The position numbers were made by a program, and so were the translations under genes. A model generated the notes under the pieces. It worked only from the letters and a program-made list of their open reading frames with translations, had not been told where the DNA came from and did not search any database. Positions 7,764 through 32,684 of a DNA stretch of 62,595 nucleotides are shown one piece after another (the stretch's first letter is position 1; each line of letters begins with the position of its first letter). The stretch is taken from the IMG/VR virus record IMGVR_UViG_3300021963_000130, positions 1-62,595 of that record. One strand, given 5' to 3'. This DNA is from a virus.

Positions 7764-7950
7764 CGGATTTTTCTACTTTCTCAGCAAGGTCAAGGAGATG
7801 GCGCTCTGCGATAGCTAGACCCTGAATAACACCGCAAAGTTTTTGATACTCTTCAAAAGTGCGACACCCACCACCAGCGCAGTCATCTGCGTAGTTGTTC
7901 ATGTCGGTACGTATTTTTTCGCGCAATACGCGTGCGAATTCGGAAATCAT
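7756..7950 (-). CDS. Small helical protein downstream of the portal gene
   Basis: A 64-residue protein, MISEFARVLREKIRTDMNNY onward, mostly helical and containing ADDCAGGGC with two cysteines. It overlaps the portal gene by 4 bases and the GroES-like gene by 8, so all three are translationally coupled. Small helical proteins of this shape often follow portal genes in podoviruses. Their role is not known. Confidence 0.75.
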   Translation of the reverse strand: MISEFARVLREKIRTDMNNYADDCAGGGCRTFEEYQKLCGVIQGLAIAERHLLDLAEKVEKSDE

Positions 7951-10430
7951 TGTTTAGGCGGCTCCTTTTGTTTGTTGGCCAGATCATGAATGCGCTGCAC
8001 GGACTGCTGGCGCTCGGTCATCTGCATCTGTTCACGCTTGGTCTTTATGTCCCCAGCCTTGCCCATTGCAGAAATGTTTGCCGCTGACTTCTGCTGTTGC
8101 AGTTGACCGGCTTTGTTCATGGCATCAATCTGAAGCCGCTTGTTGTCCAGCTCCAGCCGACCCTGCATCTCTTGCGCCTTGAGCTGCATGTCTTGCTGCT
8201 TGAGCTGGAGTTCTTGTTGCTTGATCTGCAACTCTTGCTGCTGCATCTGGATCATCGGGTCTTGCTGTTGTTGCTGAGCTTGCTTCTGAGCTTGCTGAGC
8301 TTGGCTCTGCTGGAGCACTTGCTGTGCAGCTTGGGCCATCATGCCGGACAACTGAATCTCCATCTCAGGCGGCAGCTTGTCGTCTTCCGGTGGCAGGGGC
8401 ATACCCATCTGCTGCTCAATCTTCTGGCGGTATGCGTACCCAACGTGCTCAGCAACGTGGGCCATCATTGCGCCTTGAATCTGCGGAGCTTTGGGGTTCT
8501 GGCCAATCAGTTCCATGACGATGGGGTCTTGCATCGCCATCATGTGCACCTTGATATGGGACTCATGGTCTTGGTAGAAGAACGCCTTCAGTGGCTCCAA
8601 GCGCAGCGCAGCCATGTTCTCAGACACAGGGTCTTTCGGTTTCTGGTCGTCCGGCAGGGGCACAAGCTTTTCAGCATCCTTGATACCCAACACGCCAAGC
8701 ATCTGCCTGTGAAGCTGGGGCAAGTCGTAAATATCCGGTGCCATTTGAGCCATTTGTATGACTGCTTGGTACTGAACCACTCGTTGACTCATGGTGGCTG
8801 CGTTTGGATCGCTCACGGGGATGATGTCTACGTGGTCGTAGTCAGCAGCCTTGGCCTTGCGTGGGGCATCAATCGGATCGTAGTCATAGTCTGGGTCGGT
8901 GTAGTCGCGGATGATCGCGGCCAGCAGACGCAGCTCTTGTTTGAATGTGTAGTGCAGCCGCGCTTGCACGGCGCTCATGACTTTAAGCTGGCGCTCCAGC
9001 AGAGCCAGTGTGGTGCCCACAGGTGCTTGGGCAGACATGTCCGACACTTTCATGTCGGCAGTGGCTGCAAACCTGCGGCCTTCTTCTACTATCTGGCCAA
9101 GCAGACCCATCAGAACTTGGCTTGGCTCCTTGTACGGCAACGGCAGGATACTGTCGCGCAGCGCACCAGAGCCAATATCTACGTCACGCCATTCTCCGGG
9201 AGCGATGGGGGTGTCGTCGCCTTTGATGCGCATGCCGCGAGATTTAAGACCTCCGGGTAGGTTAGACAGCGTGCCAGCATCAACAAGCTGTCGCATGAGG
9301 CTGGTGGCTGATTTGGCATATCCACCAATGAGATGGAAAAGGCCGAAGCCGTACGCTCCAAAACCCGGAATGTATTGATAGTGAACAAAGTGTTGTCGTT
9401 TGATTTCAAGGGGGTCTTCCTGTTCCCAGTTTCTGCGGATGGCCAGAACATCGTTCGAGCCTTTGATTAGGGTAACTACGTATGGACGTGTAATGCCGGT
9501 CGGTTTGCCGTCGTCATCCTTGTCTTCATCGCCCCTGAGCACCAAGTCAACATGCGACTCATACAGTGTGTAGCGGTCGTCATTTATATCAGAGAAGCCC
9601 GTTTCTTTGTCCTTGGCCTTCTTGATGTTGTCTTGTTCCTTGCTGGGGTCAGGCAACTCAATGTCGCGGTAAAAGCCTGCCTGCTGGAGCTTAACAATCT
9701 CGTTTTTTGTCTTGCGCATGACGTGCGTCAGGCGGTAGCAAGTGTCCAGATCGGATGTGCCATAGGGCAGTAGGATGTCTTCAGCCGGTACAAATATTGA
9801 AATCTGGCGGCCAATGTTGGGGTCGTAGTACACCTTCTTGAACGCCGAACCGGTGGCTGGCAAGCTCCACAGCATGCGCTCATGCTCAGGACGGAACTCG
9901 CGCATGACTTCTGTCAGCTCGTAGTTCATGTCTTCTTCAACGCGGATGGACGCTTCTTTCTTCTCGGGGGTCTCTTTGCCCAGAATCTTTGTACGTACCG
10001 GCCCTTGGGCGGGGAATGTCTCGGTGATGGTCTCTGACTGGAACCGAACCACCGCCTCTGTAATCATGGGGTGGAACACACCAGATGCGCCGTTCCACGG
10101 CTCCGTGCGATCTTCGTACTGCAAGCCCAACAGCTTGATGCCTTCTGTATATGCGCGTTCCCAGTCCTTGCGGGAACTCTTGTCTTGCTCAATGTCTCCA
10201 GCCAACTCAGAAGCCATCTCCATGATGTCATCTTCGGATAGCGTGTCGGCCAAGTTTTCGTCAAACTCGTCGTCCTCGCCTTTACCAATACTGATGTCCA
10301 AGTCCCCGGCGTGGATGTTGACCGCTTCTGGGTCAATGATTTCAATCTCAATGGCTTCTTCCTCTTGGGCAAGGTCATCCATGCTTTGGGGTTGCTGGTA
10401 CAGCGCTTTATCTATATTGGTGGCCATCAT
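7947..10430 (-). CDS. Portal protein (podovirus, large form)
   Basis: An 827-residue protein. The acidic N-terminus is followed by a portal core with DWERAYTEGIKLLGLQYEDR, WNGASGVFHPMITEAVVRFQ and FVHYQYIPGFGAYGFGLFHL. The C-terminal 130 residues are extremely Gln-rich and helical, with alternating QQQ and LQLKQQ units, and resemble the barrel or crown helices of P22-like portals. The portal forms the dodecameric DNA channel at one capsid vertex and binds terminase. It starts 6 bases after the large terminase gene. Two consecutive ATG codons follow AGGATAA, and either may be used. Confidence 0.92.
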   Translation of the reverse strand: MMATNIDKALYQQPQSMDDLAQEEEAIEIEIIDPEAVNIHAGDLDISIGKGEDDEFDENLADTLSEDDIMEMASELAGDIEQDKSSRKDWERAYTEGIKLLGLQYEDRTEPWNGASGVFHPMITEAVVRFQSETITETFPAQGPVRTKILGKETPEKKEASIRVEEDMNYELTEVMREFRPEHERMLWSLPATGSAFKKVYYDPNIGRQISIFVPAEDILLPYGTSDLDTCYRLTHVMRKTKNEIVKLQQAGFYRDIELPDPSKEQDNIKKAKDKETGFSDINDDRYTLYESHVDLVLRGDEDKDDDGKPTGITRPYVVTLIKGSNDVLAIRRNWEQEDPLEIKRQHFVHYQYIPGFGAYGFGLFHLIGGYAKSATSLMRQLVDAGTLSNLPGGLKSRGMRIKGDDTPIAPGEWRDVDIGSGALRDSILPLPYKEPSQVLMGLLGQIVEEGRRFAATADMKVSDMSAQAPVGTTLALLERQLKVMSAVQARLHYTFKQELRLLAAIIRDYTDPDYDYDPIDAPRKAKAADYDHVDIIPVSDPNAATMSQRVVQYQAVIQMAQMAPDIYDLPQLHRQMLGVLGIKDAEKLVPLPDDQKPKDPVSENMAALRLEPLKAFFYQDHESHIKVHMMAMQDPIVMELIGQNPKAPQIQGAMMAHVAEHVGYAYRQKIEQQMGMPLPPEDDKLPPEMEIQLSGMMAQAAQQVLQQSQAQQAQKQAQQQQQDPMIQMQQQELQIKQQELQLKQQDMQLKAQEMQGRLELDNKRLQIDAMNKAGQLQQQKSAANISAMGKAGDIKTKREQMQMTERQQSVQRIHDLANKQKEPPKQ

Positions 10431-10436
10431 TTATCC

Positions 10437-11975
10437 TCAGTAGTACGCCGCCACGCGGCGCTTGAAAAATTGGGGTTCGTCTGGCTCATCTATGTCAACT
10501 CTGATGAAGCCGCCTTGTCTGACGCGCATCAGTGCTTGGGAGGTTGTGTCCACAAAGTCATCGTTGTCTCCGTTGGGAAAAGACGCAACCTCTTCAATGA
10601 CTTCGCGTGCCCAGCGTGTGTCAGGTGCCCATACCAACCCAGACGAGAACATGTCGGCAATAGCGTTCAGACGCACTATCTTATCGTTTCCACGGCTCGG
10701 TGTAAATTCCTGCACTGGGATGCCCATGTTGCGCAGCTCTTGGATCAGGGGTGCGCCAGCGGCTTTCTTCTCCACGATGAACGCATCTGGTTCCCACTCC
10801 TTCCAGTGCTTCAGGGCGCAGGCCTTGAGTTCCGGGAACTGCATCCGTTCTTTGAACGCGTCCAGCAGTATCACCTGCGCCTTGTTGTTCTCTTCCTCGT
10901 TGTAGAACACGCCCCATGTTGTACACGCGCTGTAGTCAGATGTGTTCTTTGTCTCGTGCGCCGTGTCCCAACTCTGGACAATGTACTCACAGGACGGCGG
11001 GGTTTCACTTTCCCAGACGCGCCAGCTCTTTCTAGAGATGATTGCCGCAGTGTCGCTGGTAGGCTGCTGCATGTACTGCGCGTTCCAGTACTTGGGATCC
11101 ATTGAGGACTTGGCGCTCAGGAGCGACTCCAGTGGCCACTGCTCTGGCCAGAGGGACTTCTCGTTGTCCGTGCCTTCGTGCAGGATGGCCGGTAGCTCCA
11201 CGATCTCCCATGTGGGGGAGTCAGGATTCTTAACTTGATAATCAATCAGCCGTCCGGTCAAATCCAGCTTGCCCCAGCGCGTCATGATGACAATGATCGC
11301 CCCGCCCGGCATCAGTCGTTGTAGGGGGCCGGTCTGGAACCACGACCACGCCGTGTCGAAGGCGAGTCGGCTATTGGCTTTAACATCTTGTTCAGAATGC
11401 GGGTCATCAATAACAAACAGATCAGCTCCGCGACCAGCCAGAGCACCACCAACACCGGCAGCATAATACTGACCACCAGCAGCAGTAGACCACTTTCCAG
11501 CAGCCTTCTGATCGTCTGCCACAAGCGTTTGAGGAAAGAGTTCATGGTATTGCTCATCGTCCAGTAAGTTTCTGACTCTGCGTCCGAAGTCCTCGGATAG
11601 CGATGCGGTGTGCGTTCCCATGATAATTTTCTTATTAGGGAAATTACCTAGGAAGTATGCGGGGAACAAGTAGCTGGAAAACTCGGACTTACCCATCCGT
11701 GGCGCAATATTGATGATGACGCGCTTCTTTTTACCGTCGATCACGTCCTGAAATATCTTGGCCAGCTTCCTGTGGTGCGGCCCGACTTTGAATCCGGGGT
11801 AGACGTGCTTGGCAAACTCAAGCACGTTGGTGCGCCCAGCCACCAACTTGTACCGCTTCTCGCGCTCCTCCAGCATGTCCATGAGTTCAATCTTCTCTTT
11901 GAGGCTCATGGTAGGAAGAGCACGCTGAATAGCTTGGATCTCTGGTTTGTTTAACGTTAGACTTTCAAGATTCAT
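10437..11975 (-). CDS. Large terminase subunit (DNA packaging ATPase and nuclease)
   Basis: A 512-residue protein. The ATPase has a variant Walker A APRMGKS at 91-97 and Walker B LFVIDD at 187-192. A motif III-like MTRWGK lies near 232-237. The RNase H-like nuclease has D338 in SWDTA, E403 in VEKK, and the acidic DDFVD at 473-477. It pumps DNA into the prohead and cuts concatemers. It overlaps the small subunit gene by 11 bases and is followed by the portal gene, the standard order. All catalytic residues appear intact. Confidence 0.95.
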   Translation of the reverse strand: MNLESLTLNKPEIQAIQRALPTMSLKEKIELMDMLEEREKRYKLVAGRTNVLEFAKHVYPGFKVGPHHRKLAKIFQDVIDGKKKRVIINIAPRMGKSEFSSYLFPAYFLGNFPNKKIIMGTHTASLSEDFGRRVRNLLDDEQYHELFPQTLVADDQKAAGKWSTAAGGQYYAAGVGGALAGRGADLFVIDDPHSEQDVKANSRLAFDTAWSWFQTGPLQRLMPGGAIIVIMTRWGKLDLTGRLIDYQVKNPDSPTWEIVELPAILHEGTDNEKSLWPEQWPLESLLSAKSSMDPKYWNAQYMQQPTSDTAAIISRKSWRVWESETPPSCEYIVQSWDTAHETKNTSDYSACTTWGVFYNEEENNKAQVILLDAFKERMQFPELKACALKHWKEWEPDAFIVEKKAAGAPLIQELRNMGIPVQEFTPSRGNDKIVRLNAIADMFSSGLVWAPDTRWAREVIEEVASFPNGDNDDFVDTTSQALMRVRQGGFIRVDIDEPDEPQFFKRRVAAYY

Positions 11976-12579: not shown

Positions 12580-12608
12580 TTGTACCTGCGATGCGCGGAG
12601 TGTATACT
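12580..12608 (+). promoter_or_regulatory. Sigma70-like promoter for the candidate small RNA
   Basis: On the plus strand TTGTAC (12580-12585) and TATACT (12603-12608) are separated by 17 bases, and TG precedes the -10 element. Transcription would start near 12615 and run straight into the structured segment that ends in a terminator. The -35 match is moderate (three of six), so the assignment rests mainly on the good -10 element and the downstream terminator. Confidence 0.5.
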
Positions 12609-12628
12609 AATTGTCAGCAGTTGCGCAA
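12601..12628 (-). promoter_or_regulatory. Promoter-like sequence for the late (terminase) operon
   Basis: On the minus strand TTGCGC (12628-12623) and TATACA (12606-12601) are 16 bases apart, placing a start about 30 bases ahead of the small terminase ATG. The -10 element overlaps the plus-strand -10 because GTATAC is symmetrical, making this a candidate bidirectional promoter. The -35 element lies inside the palindrome GTTGCGCAAC (12620-12629), a possible operator. Match quality is moderate. Confidence 0.45.
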
Positions 12629-12718
12629 CCGTGGGCCTTGGCCCTGTTGTTCAGATGCTTCTCCTCAGTTGTGCTCCAACTGTTTAATCCCCCGTCAGCA
12701 ATGCCGGGGGATTTTTTT
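12615..12718 (+). ncRNA. Candidate structured small RNA in the divergent control region
   Basis: No gene starts here on the plus strand, yet the segment lies between a promoter-like sequence and a strong intrinsic terminator. It contains in order the palindrome GTTGCGCAAC (12620-12629), a GGGC-CTTG-GCCC hairpin (12633-12644), an apparently single-stranded stretch with GCTTCTCCTC (12657-12666), a CAGTTG-TGCTC-CAACTG hairpin (12666-12682) and the terminator hairpin. GCTTCTCCTC is the exact complement of GAGGAGAAGC, the ribosome binding site of the gene at 29219, and most of it is complementary to many other early sites. A trans-acting regulator of early translation is hypothesised. No homologous RNA family is known to me. 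Confidence 0.5.
12686..12718 (+). terminator. Strong intrinsic terminator of the candidate small RNA
   Basis: AATCCCCCG (12686-12694) pairs with CGGGGGATT (12705-12713) around a ten-base loop, and seven T residues run from 12712 to 12718. The U-run makes it functional on the plus strand only. Since the nearest plus-strand gene starts at 13093, it must end a short transcript that begins in the upstream 100 bases. Confidence 0.85.
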
Positions 12719-13051
12719 ATGGCTGTATGTCTAGCGTTGGACATAGGGTTCTTCCAAATTTTTTAGAAATTTTTATGGTGGGTGTGATTATCTTCATAGG
12801 GGGGGTAGTGTCTGTGGAACTCAAACAGGGGGGTTTGAGGTATCTGCGGTATTAAGTATTACAGAAGTGCTGAGAATCGGTGGGGAATAGTGTTCATGTC
12901 AGGCACGACCCAGTTCTACATACAGGGGTGATGGGGGTACGGTGGGGTCTAAGGTATTCGATTATCTCCCATTTTCAGGGTCAGCTAGTACCTCCGTTTA
13001 CCCCCATCTTTACAATAGAGGCATCGGTTAGGGATTGGCTCTGATCGGTAC
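12719..13051. promoter_or_regulatory. Non-coding divergent control region upstream of the early arm
   Basis: About 330 bases without a convincing gene. It holds a perfect inverted repeat CTCAAAC-N6-GTTTGAG (12820-12839), a shorter imperfect dyad TGTCTA-N4-TGGACA near 12727, G-rich runs around 12799-12805 and a degenerate copy of the early leader motif (GGGGAATAGTGTTC from 12882). A -10-like TACAAT lies at 13011-13016 without a good -35 element. It probably carries the early promoter and operators, but none can be fixed by inspection. Confidence 0.5.
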
Positions 13052-13068
13052 GGGGAACTCACTTCCCC
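13052..13068 (+). repeat. Leader stem-loop repeat SL1, copy 1
   Basis: GGGGAA-CTCAC-TTCCCC, a perfect six-pair inverted repeat with a five-base loop, 24 bases before the start of the first early gene. The same element occurs five more times in the next 3.7 kb, always between genes. It has no U-run, so it could be an RNA stem-loop or a protein-binding operator. Confidence 0.8.
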
Positions 13069-13092: not shown

Positions 13093-13518
13093 ATGAAACT
13101 CGCAACACGTACAACCATGATTCACGCTGCTCTTGACTCTGCATTCACCTATGCGGAGAAAGTCGCACTCTTACAGAAAGCATTCGAGGGTAAGGCTGTC
13201 GAAGATATTCGGAATGCAATTCGCCCTGATGTCGCAAGCTACACGAAATATCAGGTGCCGATGATTGACGGCAAGGGTAAGGCTGTCGGCACTAAGGTGC
13301 TGGATAAAGAGCACCCACAGTATGAGAACTGTCGCAAGGCCGTGACGAATCTGGCGAATGACATTGCAGGTAAGACCTCAGAGTCTGTCGAGGAAATCGA
13401 AGTCCCCGAGGAAGTCCTGAAAGCCGCCGAGCGTCTGGCTAAATTGTGCGCTCAGTATGAGGAGTCACGCAAGCTGGCTTCGACTGCTGTTGCTCAGGCA
13501 TTCGCTGCTGCTAAGTGA
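13093..13518 (+). CDS. First early protein, unknown function
   Basis: A 141-residue, mostly helical and charged protein (MKLATRTTMIHAALDSAFTY onward). No enzyme or DNA-binding motif is recognised. It has a clear AAAGGAAC site upstream, preceded by leader stem-loop SL1, and is followed by another SL1 copy. As the first gene of the early arm it is likely expressed immediately after infection. Many phages place host-takeover proteins here, but no such activity can be read from the sequence. Confidence 0.75.
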   Translation: MKLATRTTMIHAALDSAFTYAEKVALLQKAFEGKAVEDIRNAIRPDVASYTKYQVPMIDGKGKAVGTKVLDKEHPQYENCRKAVTNLANDIAGKTSESVEEIEVPEEVLKAAERLAKLCAQYEESRKLASTAVAQAFAAAK

Positions 13519-13520
13519 AT

Positions 13521-13578
13521 GGGGAAGTCAGTTCCCTGTTCTTTTTTATCGGGCGGCGTAGGCGCGATGCCTTGCCGC
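13521..13578 (+). repeat. Leader module: SL1 copy 2 plus a second hairpin
   Basis: GGGGAA-GTCAG-TTCCCT (13521-13537) is followed by CTTTTTTAT, so this copy could also act as a weak terminator. An imperfect hairpin GCGGC...GCCGC (13553-13578) follows and leads to the ribosome site of the next gene. The SL1-SL2-ribosome site order is repeated before other early genes. Confidence 0.7.
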
Positions 13579-14233: not shown

Positions 14234-14365
14234 CCAAAGTCAGCGATTACCCCAGTGAACACGGGCAGTCCACATTTTCTGTCCATACTATCTACTTTTC
14301 TATTTATATATTTATATATAGGAGTGTATGTATGTGCGTGCTCTCAAGTAATCGGCTGACTTTGG
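14234..14365. repeat. Long inverted repeat flanking an AT-rich loop
   Basis: CCAAAGTCAGCGATTAC (14234-14250) is complementary to GTAATCGGCTGACTTTGG (14348-14365) with a single unpaired C, giving 17 pairs. The 97 bases between contain the most AT-rich stretch of the early arm. The structure could be a replication origin, a recombination substrate or a large RNA stem. Confidence 0.7.
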
Positions 14366-19368: not shown

Positions 19369-20103
19369 ATGACTCCTGCTATTTCAGAGATGGTTAAGCG
19401 AGTAGGGTTTGACCCTGCTTCGTATACATGGATGGACTTGTCTGTTCTGCCTGAAGGCTTCAACGCAGCAAAGCTGCTAACAGAATACGGCGTGTTGGAT
19501 CAGAAGATTTATCTTGATACGCTGCACTTTCCCTTTCCAAACACGGTGCTGGTATCCAACAAAGTTGAAGAAACAGTAATAACAATATCAACACGCAACA
19601 CAGGAGAAATAGTGGTTGAAATATGGGGAAAAGAAGCAGTACCAGTCGGTGCTTGGACACCTGAAGACGGGTTCAAGATGCACCCTGCATGGGTAGAGTT
19701 TGCAAAGGATAACCCGCATTTGTTTGACACACCTGAAGTGATAGGGGAAATAATTACATCCCGCATATCGGTCTTAGAAGCATTGATGTTGTACGCCGCT
19801 AAGAAAGGTTCTGTGGTGCAAGGCCATAAGTGTTTGAGTACCAGAGCAAGCAACATGAAGCGCATAAAGAAAGGCAAGAAGCTGGTGTATGAATGGAGCA
19901 CGATAGAAATCAAACCAGCAATGCACGTTGACAAAGCAACAGAAACAGGGAGGACACACGAGACACCGCGCCTACATGAAGTCAGGGGACACTGGGCGGT
20001 TAGAAAGAAATCAGGTAAGAGGTATTGGGTTAAATCCCATAAACGTGGCGACCCTACCAAAGGCGCTGTATTCCATGACTACACAACAGGAGAAGCACAA
20101 TGA
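19369..20103 (+). CDS. Conserved phage early protein with a HETPRLHEVRGHW tail
   Basis: A 244-residue protein. The start at 19369 is chosen because AAAGG lies seven bases upstream, while the ATG at 19363 abuts that site. The C-terminal 50 residues (HETPRLHEVRGHW, then KRYWVKSHKRGDPTKGAVFH) are a pattern I have seen in many phage proteins of unknown function. That segment is basic and could bind nucleic acid. The N-terminal part has no recognised domain. It overlaps the next gene by 4 bases. Confidence 0.75.
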   Translation: MTPAISEMVKRVGFDPASYTWMDLSVLPEGFNAAKLLTEYGVLDQKIYLDTLHFPFPNTVLVSNKVEETVITISTRNTGEIVVEIWGKEAVPVGAWTPEDGFKMHPAWVEFAKDNPHLFDTPEVIGEIITSRISVLEALMLYAAKKGSVVQGHKCLSTRASNMKRIKKGKKLVYEWSTIEIKPAMHVDKATETGRTHETPRLHEVRGHWAVRKKSGKRYWVKSHKRGDPTKGAVFHDYTTGEAQ

Positions 20104-26929: not shown

Positions 26930-28893
26930 CAAAACCATTTGATCGGATATTAACGATTGATCTAGAGACTCGGTGGGACAAAAAAGAATATACGTTATCA
27001 AAGATGACGACAGAGGAGTACATACGTGACAAGAGATTCAAAGCATTTGGAGTATGCGTACATGAATTCGGAACCGATGATCCTATTGAATGGATTGGAG
27101 GAGATGGACTATCTGAATACTTTTCTGGAGTCGACTGGGGACGAACCGCAGTGCTTGCGCATAACGCACAGTTCGATGTCTCAATTATGGAATGGGTATA
27201 TGCCGCTAAACCCGCCTTCATCTTCGATACATTATCAATGGCACGAGCTTTACGTGGCGTGGAAGTTGGTAATTCCCTCGCCAAACTTGCAGCAGATTTT
27301 GGACTGCCTGCTAAAGGAACCGCTGTCAACAGCACAAACGGTTTACTACAGTTGGGACTGGACATTGAACAAGAACTTGCCGAGTACTGTGCGCATGACG
27401 TGTACCTGTGCGAAGAAATCTTCAAGCGACTCTCAGCAGGTTATCCCAAATCCGAACTGCGTCTGATAGACATGACGCTCAAGATGTACACACGACCACA
27501 GCTTGAGCTTGACAGCAAGATGCTCATCAAAGCATTAACAGAAGAAGGAGAACTACGTGAAGGATTACTTCAACGACTCGGCATACAAGAGGCTGAGCTT
27601 GCATCGAACCCGAAGTTTGCTGACGTACTTCAAAAACTCGGGGTTACTCCCCCGACTAAGGTCAGTAAAACTACCGGCAAAGAAGCGTTCGCTTTCGCCA
27701 AGAATGATGCCATGTTCCAAGCGTTGCTCAACAGTGAACGTGAAGATGTTGCCCTCCTTTGTGAAGCACGCCTTAAAGTTAAATCCACGACAGAACGAAC
27801 AAGGGCACAGCGATTTCTTGACATCAGTCAGCGCGGCAAACTACCGGTTCCGCTATCGTATTACGGTGCTCTCTCGGGCCGCTGGACGGCAGCAAAGGGT
27901 AGTGCCATCAACATGCAAAACCTCAAGCGCGGAAGTTTCTTACGCAAAGCAATTATGGCTCCCGATGGCTACCAACTCGTCGTCGGTGATCTTTCGCAAA
28001 TTGAGCCGCGAGTCCTCGCGTGGCTCGCAGACTATGCAGATATGCTTGACATCTTCCGCGCTGGTGGTGACCCTTATGCGGCATTCGGTAGCCAGATGTT
28101 CAACATACCCGATCTCACCAAAGAGTCTCACCCCGATCTCCGTCAATCGGCGAAGAGCGCACTGCTTGGCTGCGGCTATGGATTGGGTTGGGCTTCGTTC
28201 GCGTCGCAACTTCTCGTAGGGTTCCTTGGTGCGCCGCCGGTACGGTACGACAAAGCGTTTGCCAAGAAGCTGGGGGTCGATCAGGCGTACGCCGAACGCT
28301 TCCTTGACTGGGATGACAACGTGACCAAGATGCTGGAGATACCGCACACCTGTACACAGCAGGAGCTGTTGACCCACTGCCTTGCGGCTAAACGGATCAT
28401 CGACATCTACCGCGCCACTGCCCACCCCGTTACTACCTTCTGGGACATGTGCTCACAGCTTATCGAGGACAGTTTGTATGGGGGTAAGGTGTACCAGTAC
28501 AAGTGTTTGACATTCAGCAAGGAACGTATAGAATTACCAAACGGGATGAGCTTGCTCTACCCCGAACTCAGACGCACAAAAGATGACAAAGGTAGGAGCC
28601 AGTGGGTATACGGGCCAAACGCTACCAAGCTGTATGCAGGAAAGTTGACCAATAACGTTACGCAGGCCGTAGCGCGTATTGTCATGACCGATGGAATGTT
28701 GAGGGTATCGAAGAAGTACCCCGTGGTAGGCACAGTGCACGATGAACAGATCGTGTTGGTGCCTGATGCAGAAGTCGTTGAAGCCAAGCCTTGGGTCTTG
28801 GGCCAGATGACATTGGAGCCAAAGTACTTGCCGGGGATACCTCTGGCCGCTGACGGTGGTGCACACCGTAGATATGGAGAAGCAAAACAATGA
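26926..28893 (+). CDS. Family A DNA polymerase with 3'-5' exonuclease domain
   Basis: A 655-residue replicative polymerase. The exonuclease has IDLE (D12, E14), LAHNAQFD and EYCAHDVYLCE. The polymerase has motif A VVGDLSQIEPRVLAWL, motif B RQSAKSALLGCGYG (R406, K410), and motif C GTVHDEQIVL. In the O-helix, the position equal to E. coli Pol I Phe762 is Leu414, a substitution studied as a marker of phage lifestyle. No 5' nuclease domain is present. Ribosome site AAAGGAGAAG. Confidence 0.95.
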   Translation: MTKPFDRILTIDLETRWDKKEYTLSKMTTEEYIRDKRFKAFGVCVHEFGTDDPIEWIGGDGLSEYFSGVDWGRTAVLAHNAQFDVSIMEWVYAAKPAFIFDTLSMARALRGVEVGNSLAKLAADFGLPAKGTAVNSTNGLLQLGLDIEQELAEYCAHDVYLCEEIFKRLSAGYPKSELRLIDMTLKMYTRPQLELDSKMLIKALTEEGELREGLLQRLGIQEAELASNPKFADVLQKLGVTPPTKVSKTTGKEAFAFAKNDAMFQALLNSEREDVALLCEARLKVKSTTERTRAQRFLDISQRGKLPVPLSYYGALSGRWTAAKGSAINMQNLKRGSFLRKAIMAPDGYQLVVGDLSQIEPRVLAWLADYADMLDIFRAGGDPYAAFGSQMFNIPDLTKESHPDLRQSAKSALLGCGYGLGWASFASQLLVGFLGAPPVRYDKAFAKKLGVDQAYAERFLDWDDNVTKMLEIPHTCTQQELLTHCLAAKRIIDIYRATAHPVTTFWDMCSQLIEDSLYGGKVYQYKCLTFSKERIELPNGMSLLYPELRRTKDDKGRSQWVYGPNATKLYAGKLTNNVTQAVARIVMTDGMLRVSKKYPVVGTVHDEQIVLVPDAEVVEAKPWVLGQMTLEPKYLPGIPLAADGGAHRRYGEAKQ

Positions 28894-29222
28894 CAACACT
28901 ACATGAAGGGCTTGCAATAGGCCACGCAAGGGCAAACGATGCGGCACTGCACGCAGGAGATAGCTGGGTCTCAACGGCTGTCGAGGCATTTAGGGCACAC
29001 GCGCTTACCAACCAGTGGTTTACAACAGAACAAGTTAGGCAAGCGTACCCCGATCTGCCTGAACCACCTGACAAACGTGCATGGGGCGCAGTGCCTCGGC
29101 TTGCACAGCGAGAAGGAATTGTCACGCCACATGGTTGGGTACGCGCCAGCAGCCCGACAGTGCACGGCATGGTAGTGACGCTGTGGAAATCAAGTACATA
29201 CAGAGGAGAAGCAAAACAATGA
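28890..29222 (+). CDS. Small protein downstream of the polymerase, possible wHTH
   Basis: A 110-residue protein with AHALTNQWFTTEQVRQAYPD and a segment with GAVPRLAQREGIV, which together read like a small winged-helix fold. It overlaps the polymerase gene by 4 bases. Similar proteins occur next to phage polymerases. Function is not established. Confidence 0.68.
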   Translation: MTTLHEGLAIGHARANDAALHAGDSWVSTAVEAFRAHALTNQWFTTEQVRQAYPDLPEPPDKRAWGAVPRLAQREGIVTPHGWVRASSPTVHGMVVTLWKSSTYRGEAKQ

Positions 29223-30633: not shown

Positions 30634-30651
30634 AACAATCGGAGAAGCATT

Positions 30652-32211
30652 TTGGAAATCCTTGAAGACAAGGCACTAATATTCAGAACCAGAAACCCAG
30701 ACAAGTACAGCATCATTCCAAAGCACAAAGTCATTGAACGTGATGACGGTGGGTTCGATGTCGCTGTCTACTGGGGACTGGACGAATGCAGAGTGCTACG
30801 CAACCTCGGGGTGAAGGACGTACCTTCACCAATCACACGCCGCTATAAGTGGCCGGGCAGGTACAAGCCTATGCAGCATCAGATCGAGACGGCAGCGTTC
30901 TTGACGATGCACCGCAAAGCGTTTGTGTTCTCAGAACCCGGCACAGGTAAGACGCTTGCTGCACTGTGGGCGGCTGACTACCTGATAAGCATTAAACACG
31001 TACGCCGTGTTTTGATCTTGTGCCCACTATCCATCATGCAGTCTGCATGGCTGGCTGACCTGAGCAACAGTATCATCCATCGCTCTGCCATCGTCGCGCA
31101 CCACCCCCAAGCTAGTCGCAGGATTGAAATGATCCAGCAGGACTACGAGTTCGTCATCGCTAACTACGAAGGACTGAACCTAGTAGCTGATGAGATCAAC
31201 GCTGATGGGCGCTTTGATCTGGTGATCGTGGATGAAGCCAACGCATACAAGACGGTGACAACCAAACGCTGGAAGGCACTGAAGTCAATCATCAAGCCAA
31301 GCACGCACGTATGGATGATGACCGGTACTCCAGCATCGCAGTCGCCAGCAGATGCGTACGGCTTGGCCAAGATCGTGAACCCTGAAGGTGTGCCCAACTT
31401 CTACACGTCATGGCGCGACAAAGTGATGAACAAGATTACGCTGTACAAGTGGGCACCGAAAGCCAACGCAGCCGATCTGGTACACGAAGCACTGCAACCA
31501 GCGATACGGTTCAGTAAAGCGCAGTGCCTTGACTTGCCGCCCGTGCTGACCACAACACGCGAAGTACCACTGACACCACAACAAGCCAAGTACTACAACT
31601 TGTTGAAAGATCGTATGCTGGTGCAGGCCGCTGGCGAGACGATCAGCGCAGTCAACGCTGCCGCTGGTGTAAGTAAGCTCTTGCAGATCAGTTGCGGTGC
31701 TGTGTACACAGACGACAAAGAGGTTGTCGAGTTCGATGCTGGCCCACGGCTTGGCGTGCTGGAAGAAATACTGGATGAGACAGATCGCAAGGTAATCATC
31801 TTCGCGTTGTTTCGTTCAAGCATCGACACCATACAAACGCATCTGACAAAGAAGAACATCCCCAACGAGTGCATACACGGCGGCGTAGCTGCCAACAAAC
31901 GCGCTGACATCATTCACAGGTTCCAGCATGAAAAAGAACCAAGGGTGCTGGTGATGCAGCCACAAGCAACGGCACACGGGATTACCCTGACTGCTGCCGA
32001 CACGGTGGTGTTCTTTGGGCCGCTGATGAGCGTGGAGCAGTACATCCAGTGCATAGCAAGGGCTGACCGCAAGGGACAGAACTCAGACAAAGTTACTGTT
32101 ATTCACATCCAAGGCTCACCAATTGAAAAGAAAATGTTCAAAGCACTGGAAGGGAAAGTGAGCGATAACTTACTTTTGACCCAGATGTTTGAGATAGAAA
32201 TAAATTCTTGA
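30652..32211 (+). CDS. SNF2-type DEAD/H helicase (TTG start)
   Basis: A 519-residue superfamily 2 helicase. Walker A is SEPGTGKT (K100), motif II VDEANAYK, motif III MMTGTPAS, motif V/VI includes AQATAHGITLTAAD-like residues and QYIQCIARADRKGQ. The start codon is TTG at 30652, with CGGAGAAGC eight bases upstream. It likely unwinds or translocates on DNA during replication or recombination, as in other phages where it neighbours polymerase and primase. Family resemblance is to SNF2-like DEAD/DEAH box proteins. Confidence 0.92.
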   Translation: MEILEDKALIFRTRNPDKYSIIPKHKVIERDDGGFDVAVYWGLDECRVLRNLGVKDVPSPITRRYKWPGRYKPMQHQIETAAFLTMHRKAFVFSEPGTGKTLAALWAADYLISIKHVRRVLILCPLSIMQSAWLADLSNSIIHRSAIVAHHPQASRRIEMIQQDYEFVIANYEGLNLVADEINADGRFDLVIVDEANAYKTVTTKRWKALKSIIKPSTHVWMMTGTPASQSPADAYGLAKIVNPEGVPNFYTSWRDKVMNKITLYKWAPKANAADLVHEALQPAIRFSKAQCLDLPPVLTTTREVPLTPQQAKYYNLLKDRMLVQAAGETISAVNAAAGVSKLLQISCGAVYTDDKEVVEFDAGPRLGVLEEILDETDRKVIIFALFRSSIDTIQTHLTKKNIPNECIHGGVAANKRADIIHRFQHEKEPRVLVMQPQATAHGITLTAADTVVFFGPLMSVEQYIQCIARADRKGQNSDKVTVIHIQGSPIEKKMFKALEGKVSDNLLLTQMFEIEINS

Positions 32212-32279
32212 AAGGAGTTGCAAACCAGAATTTACTGTGTACACTGTCCAACCTTAGACAAACAAAACAGGAGAAGCAA

Positions 32280-32684
32280 ATGGACGAACAACAAGTCCCG
32301 TTCGATAAACTGGTGAAGGTCTACCGCAAGATGAAGCTGGAGATCGACACGCTGACACAAGAGTACGACACCAAGGTGGAGTTACTCAAAGCGCAACAAG
32401 ATGAAATCAAGTTCGCTATCAAAGACCAGATGAAGGCACTCGGTGTCTCATCTGTAAAGAGTCCCTTTGGGACGGTATCCATGATGACGAAGACGCGTTA
32501 CAACACGCAGGACTGGTCGTCGTTCAAGGAGTTCATCCTTGAGCACGGCGTAGTTGATCTGCTGGAGAAGCGCATCGCTCAAACCAACATGGCTACCTTC
32601 CTTGAAGAGAATCCGGGGGTTGTACCTCCGGGATTGAATTCAAACACTGAGTTTGAAATCCGTATCACCAAACCAACCAAGTGA
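32280..32684 (+). CDS. Conserved coiled-coil protein next to the SSB-like gene
   Basis: A 134-residue protein opening MDEQQVPFDKLVKVYRKMKL. A coiled coil covers residues 15-60 and the C-terminal part has TKTRYNTQDWSSFKEFILEH and ENPGVVPPGLN. Similar proteins lie beside single-stranded DNA binding genes in many phages, without a known role. The start at 32280 has AGGAGAAGC upstream. Confidence 0.78.
   Translation: MDEQQVPFDKLVKVYRKMKLEIDTLTQEYDTKVELLKAQQDEIKFAIKDQMKALGVSSVKSPFGTVSMMTKTRYNTQDWSSFKEFILEHGVVDLLEKRIAQTNMATFLEENPGVVPPGLNSNTEFEIRITKPTK

Follow-up and report, generated by a model that had tools for sequence, protein, structure and literature searches.

A predicted small RNA gene of uncultured freshwater phages with a conserved seed complementary to ribosome sites of their own early genes

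What lies between the two divergent gene blocks of a 62.6-kb virus, in about 104 nt between a promoter and a terminator that hold no plausible gene? We analyzed the record IMGVR_UViG_3300021963_000130 over its whole length (62,595 nt; hereafter the window). Its late block runs leftward and includes genes for the terminase large subunit (10437-11975) and the portal (7947-10430). Its early block runs rightward from 13093 and includes genes for a DNA polymerase (26926), an exonuclease-like protein (29716), a SNF2-type helicase (30652), a Mu Gam-like protein (32280), and a primase-like protein (34223). "Early" and "late" denote the two strands and their gene content, with no expression data behind them. 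The locus at 12580-12718 (+) sits between the blocks. Gene anatomy, conservation, structure, the enrichment of sites on the early strand, and seed-site co-variation were computed directly. We propose that the locus encodes a trans-acting phage RNA that pairs with ribosome sites in the same genome and so represses several early genes, a reading that we consider probable, with transcription, repression, and timing inferred.

Read along the + strand, the locus opens with a sigma-70-like promoter and a 5' stem; single-stranded UCUCCU comes next, and a second hairpin and a terminator complete it. The promoter (12580-12608) has a -35 element TTGTAC (12580-12585), a 17-nt spacer, and a -10 element TATACT (12603-12608) enclosed by the palindrome-like AGTGTATACT (12599-12608). 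The small RNA (12614-12718, ~104 nt) has a 5' end inferred from this promoter. Its 5' stem-loop (12616-12659) has a 3' arm, AUGCU/UUGCU, that forms the first half of the pairing motif. The seed UGCUUCUCCUC (12656-12666), within which GCTTCTCCTC occupies 12657-12666, is the complement of GAGGAGAAGCA, and its UCUCCU (12660-12665) is predicted to be single-stranded. Directly 3' of the seed is the second hairpin (12666-12682), which is variable in sequence with compensatory changes, and then a strong intrinsic terminator (12686-12718) with the stem CCCCCG...CGGGGG and a run of seven T residues (12712-12718). The fold of 12614-12719 has an energy of -40.7 kcal/mol (z = -4.5), and no shuffle was as good. 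The initial annotation had placed the promoter, motif, and terminator, all of them correctly on re-checking. It had also described the motif between the hairpins as unpaired; this holds for UCUCCU, but GCUU and the preceding U close the 5' stem.

Other elements lie around the locus. In the window (12729-12745) and in relatives, a conserved dyad, TGTCyAnCGTTnGACA, lies just 3' of the terminator and is followed by AT-rich DNA; it resembles an operator that overlaps an early promoter, for which relatives have TTGACA ... TATAAA. Near-copy hairpins, GGGGAACTCACTTCCCC and GGGGAAGTCAGTTCCCT, occur at 13052-13068 and 13517-13541, one in the first early leader and the other close to where the next gene starts. 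An AT-only leader, TATATATTTATATATAGGAGTGT (14300-14331), lies 5' of a small early gene and is conserved even in the distant relatives G022 and G023. Directly past the small-RNA terminator, some relatives have a tRNA gene (Asn, Met) on the opposite strand (L038, 5172-5247; L115, 5283-5357); the window itself has no tRNA genes.

The small RNA gene belongs to a family of abundant, uncultured freshwater phages and had previously gone unnoticed. Relatives were gathered via their terminase proteins, an approach blind to the RNA. Almost all of them have this element at the corresponding position, even where identity of the neighboring terminase-associated protein falls to ~46%. They share a layout of promoter, variable stem(s), nearly invariant TTGCTTCTCCT, variable hairpin, and terminator. 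The (U)UGCUUCUCCU block is nearly fixed while both hairpins vary by compensatory substitutions. The RNA is 73-134 nt long in relatives (~70-135 nt overall, 104 nt in the window) and single-copy in the genomes checked. When viral contigs were scanned for promoter plus seed, ~108 of 117 among the matches listed lay divergently upstream of the same terminase genes. Structural conservation in relatives, named as a check in the initial annotation, is borne out: both structure and seed are kept in more than 100 of them.

We found no close DNA relatives of the window among sequenced phages, and the isolates nearest by terminase have a different gene layout upstream of that gene. Bacterial copies were sought by the promoter-to-seed pattern. 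The 68 matches are attributed to chance, since they are scattered and none occurs with terminase or portal genes. A model built from an alignment of these RNAs gave no convincing bacterial copy. One bacterial sequence (L552) contains an exact UUGCUUCUCCU, without adjacent homologues of the window's proteins, and was rejected.

A consensus promoter scan of the window did not list the TTGTAC-N17-TATACT promoter, which was recognized from the strong conservation of TTG and AGTGTAYACT in relatives. Conservation of the -35 TTG is 95-99% across 139 distinct promoters, in which the spacer measures 17 nt and AGTGTAYACT is nearly fixed. The scan pattern itself required part of this, though neither the -35 element nor the A and G that precede TGTAYACT. 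The motif occurs essentially once per genome, which indicates a promoter dedicated to the RNA. Palindromic in its -10 region (AGTGTACACT in many relatives), this promoter could also drive the leftward operon. TGTGTACACT (32236-32245), one base off the promoter palindrome, lies upstream of the Gam-like gene; its occurrence is within the chance expectation for the window.

The MAFFT alignment placed the second hairpin wrongly, and RNAalifold recovered the terminator only. Because of this misplacement, pairs were counted on per-sequence folds and on a gap-free subset. Exactly two hairpins lie 3' of the pyrimidine motif in all 150 of 150 distinct cores, and the first begins 0-2 nt past the motif in 147 of the 150. 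In the shuffled control, 33 of 150 had two hairpins with the first ≤3 nt from the motif. There are 50 different outer stems, and every outer pair of the second hairpin is represented by several pair types. Outer pairs are formed in 98.5% of cases, as opposed to 25-59% when one side is slid, and the covariation score on 12 gap-free sequences exceeds those of all 500 shuffles and all slides. Among 148 full RNAs of relatives, the mean unpaired probability of UCUCCU is ~0.8-0.98, and UUGCU is mostly paired inside the 5' stem. This predicted arrangement amounts to an exposed toehold, next to which an extension can enter a target duplex by strand exchange. A coding explanation is ruled out: the hairpins change while the seed stays fixed, and lengths vary by numbers of nucleotides not divisible by three.

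Where might such a seed pair? Gene starts were taken from a simple caller that rewards GGAG and not the tail that follows it. We find five candidate targets on the + strand of the window: AGGAGAAGCA (20088-20097), before the gene at 20100 (78 amino acids, unknown); GGAGAAGCAA (28876-28885), before the gene at 28890 (110 amino acids, unknown); GAGGAGAAGCAA (29203-29214), before the gene at 29219 (106 amino acids), whose orthologues have a site type that follows the seed variant; GGAGAAGCA (30641-30649), before the SNF2-type helicase gene at 30652; and AGGAGAAGCAA (32269-32279), immediately before the Mu Gam-like gene at 32280. The called ribosome sites agree with those listed in the initial annotation, namely GAGGAGAAGC before 29219, GGAGAAGC before 20100, 28890, 30652, and 32280, and GGAGAAG before 15726, 23939, 24199, 24408, 24583, and 26926. 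Its further remark that late genes mostly use GGAGT also held, with the base after GGAG being T in 40% of late-strand genes and A in 66% of early-strand genes.

The matches are concentrated on the early strand. In 20 genomes, the full 11-nt complement AGGAGAAGCAA precedes 28 of the 798 genes on the early strand and none of the 624 on the late strand. The commonest early-strand 5-mer after GGAG in these genomes is AAGCA, found at 63-64 early genes and no late ones (best permutation, 21). By duplex energy, early starts outscore late ones in the window (p = 7e-6), and the same holds for 15 standard-seed genomes (p = 1e-34). Compared with permuted seeds, which retain the anti-Shine-Dalgarno core, the real seed ranks 1 of 60 in the window and 1 of 20 in the 15 genomes. 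It has 54 strong early targets in those genomes, versus 19 for the best permuted seed and a permuted median of 1.5. The proposed target-prediction check thus came out as foreseen, with early starts ahead of late ones and the real seed ahead of permuted controls. Recurrent targets are the SNF2-type helicase, the Mu Gam-like protein, and a small protein adjoining the DNA polymerase. Long matches are present in only a subset of early genes.

Some phages carry alternative seeds, TTGCTTTCTCCT or TTACTTCTCCT, and their sites mostly differ in kind as well. Standard-seed genomes have 55 GGAGAAGC versus 16 GGAGAAAGC sites, whereas GCUUUCUCC genomes, with GCTTTCTCC, have 4 versus 34 (Fisher 9e-12; label permutation 0/100,000). 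Several variant-seed records are partial contigs, which partly helped this first strong contrast, and the comparison was therefore repeated inside orthologous genes. Stratified in this way, the co-variation remains (z = 4.39). Ratios of GGAGAAGC to GGAGAAAGC types under standard and variant seeds are 4:0 and 0:3 for the helicase, 7:1 and 0:2 for the 106-amino acid protein, and 8:0 and 1:2 for the Gam-like protein. Genomes with the TTACTTCTCC seed have few sites, of the expected kind (GGAGAAGT 5, GGAGAAGC 0), including AGGAGAAGTAA in G031.

The genes counted here are not independent units. The T-rich variant seed needs four label changes on the terminase tree. Its confinement to a single clade is rejected at p = 0.0002, a value that a long branch may influence. 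Only three independent lineage pairs with different seeds occur on the tree; all three are concordant, too few for a sign test. Some observations run against co-variation. Slipped-seed genomes G001, G002, and G011 (GCUCUCUCC, GCUUCUCUCC) retain GGAGAAGC sites. Under the standard seed, GGAGAAAGC is found in some gene families (0:6 in two of them), and across all short contigs the standard group has 75 GGAGAAGC versus 51 GGAGAAAGC sites. In a GC-richer clade, G008 (L344-L346, L403) and G036 (L535), where the seed is diverged or variant, early sites share the non-matching AGGAGAACCA. Another pairing partner may exist for the AGGAGAACCA sites of this clade. Judged from these sequence comparisons, the pattern suggests that matching sites tend to change when the seed changes, with about three phylogenetically independent switches in support.

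We find no description of the phage RNA in the literature searched, and an Rfam search at the gathering threshold gave no match. The only close Rfam resemblance is to RF02278, Betaproteobacteria toxic sRNA (26.3 bits over the full model, E = 0.0014 to 0.02), which falls short of membership by score (cut-off, 50 bits). The invariant 27-nt 5' region of RF02278, with two CU-rich sites at the 5' end and in the first loop, is also not met. The first site reads UUGCUUCUCCU in the phage versus UUGUCUCCUCC in RF02278, and the phage hairpin loop is variable and not CU-rich. The double hairpin, in which the second is an intrinsic terminator and the CU-rich part is unpaired, is met. Burkholderiales copies of RF02278 read UUGUCUCCUCC-hairpin-terminator. 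Copy number of the host RNA varies widely, with at least nine copies in one Burkholderiales genome (G044).

RF02278 is conserved in S17 of Bordetella and in the double-hairpin RNAs (ncS27/bdhR) of Burkholderia, and represses via ribosome sites (PMC11722255, PMC5688073). RNAs of this type slow growth when overexpressed (PMC5688073, PMC11722255), and S17 arises by processing of a longer RNA that carries a 5' stem-loop (PMC11722255, PMC5688073). The phage RNA shares with them a CU-rich single-stranded 5' part directly before a hairpin, followed by a terminator with a long U-tail, and, as predicted, pairing with the ribosome sites of many genes. It differs in being phage-encoded and single-copy, with its own promoter, the seed UUGCUUCUCCU, and the phage's early genes as proposed targets, and in lacking the second CU-rich site in the hairpin loop. 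The phage RNA would work like RF02278, yet the tested criteria place it outside the family; it may share an origin with those RNAs or imitate them. The NmsR sRNAs of Neisseria also cover ribosome sites with unpaired CU-rich stretches (PMC5688073), but they are tandem host genes with TCA-cycle targets and no phage targets. Known phage sRNAs, as far as the available part of one review goes (PMC12197685), include the trans-acting VpdS (VP882), PreS (lambda), and DicF (Qin) and the cis-antisense lambda OOP. On the same partial basis, these too are short phage RNAs acting by base pairing, although their targets are mostly host mRNAs or a single gene in cis. That part of the review yielded none that controls a set of its own early genes via a seed shared by ribosome sites.

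This likeness to host RNAs raises the possibility that the RNA acts mainly on host mRNAs, where Shine-Dalgarno pairing would shut down host translation in mimicry of the host double-hairpin RNAs, and that the phage sites are decoys or side effects. Its seed is an anti-Shine-Dalgarno sequence, and its anatomy resembles that of RF02278 RNAs, which are common in Burkholderiales (98/150 genomes). We consider this unlikely, though still in contention: the seed co-varies with the tails of phage sites, also inside orthologues, which would be unexpected if host mRNAs were the sole selected targets. It is less plausible still that early sites share AGGAGAAGCAA for other reasons, such as inherited or recombined leader cassettes or preferred spacing, with the RNA matching by chance and through the Shine-Dalgarno core. 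That core does make up part of the match, the lineages are related, and only about three seed switches are independent. However, permuted tails and permuted seeds perform far worse, the tail switches with the seed inside orthologues, and some helicase sites (G009, G018, G007) hold GAGAAGCAA even though GGAG has been lost. We give very little credence to a structural RNA, whether of the packaging machinery, like phi29 pRNA, or of another kind, kept beside the terminase genes, which the RNA nearly always adjoins; its own promoter and terminator indicate a free RNA, its hairpins are free to vary in sequence and length with only the seed fixed, and seed-site co-variation would go unexplained. A cis element, whether a leader or attenuator or an antisense to the leader of the leftward terminase operon, would suit the position between divergent operons and a -10 palindrome that makes a bidirectional promoter possible, but is just as hard to sustain, as the RNA ends before the early genes, does not overlap the terminase reading frame, and has strong complementarity in trans.

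We therefore return to the reading in which the RNA acts in trans to repress some of the phage's early genes. As a free-standing unit with a conserved promoter and terminator and no reading frame, it meets one criterion for a trans-acting sRNA; a conserved unpaired seed complementary to, and co-varying with, several mRNAs is another, also met, with few independent switches. In the proposed mechanism, a host-type promoter would start the RNA and the intrinsic terminator would end it. The 5' stem and second hairpin would keep the pyrimidine seed UCUCCU open, and pairing would extend into UUGCU by strand exchange. The seed would then pair with AGGAGAAGCAA at the ribosome sites of several early genes, chiefly those for replication and recombination, and block translation of the SNF2-type helicase, the Mu Gam-like protein, and the small DNA polymerase-adjacent protein. 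Such repression might dampen early genes once their product suffices, or act at the switch to late genes. Hfq dependence is likewise an inference, hinted at only by the long U-tail (U7). The initial annotation had the RNA blocking early translation. Early-strand complementarity and seed-site co-variation uphold the direction of that idea, but because long matches are present in only a subset of early genes, "represses some early genes" is the appropriate wording. It is not excluded that the sites instead soak up the RNA, as decoys, or that host mRNAs are acted upon.

Phage gene timing is usually ascribed to transcription. Here, the sequences themselves suggest that a phage-encoded small RNA controls the translation of a group of genes in its own genome. 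A broader interpretation, for and against which we see even odds, is that a lytic phage lineage has its own RNA-defined translational regulon, in which one seed and several replication-gene sites have co-evolved through several seed changes and serve as a brake or an early-to-late switch. The natural seed variants make the proposed mechanism directly testable. Our results also suggest that phages may share a design with, or imitate, the anti-Shine-Dalgarno RNAs of their hosts.
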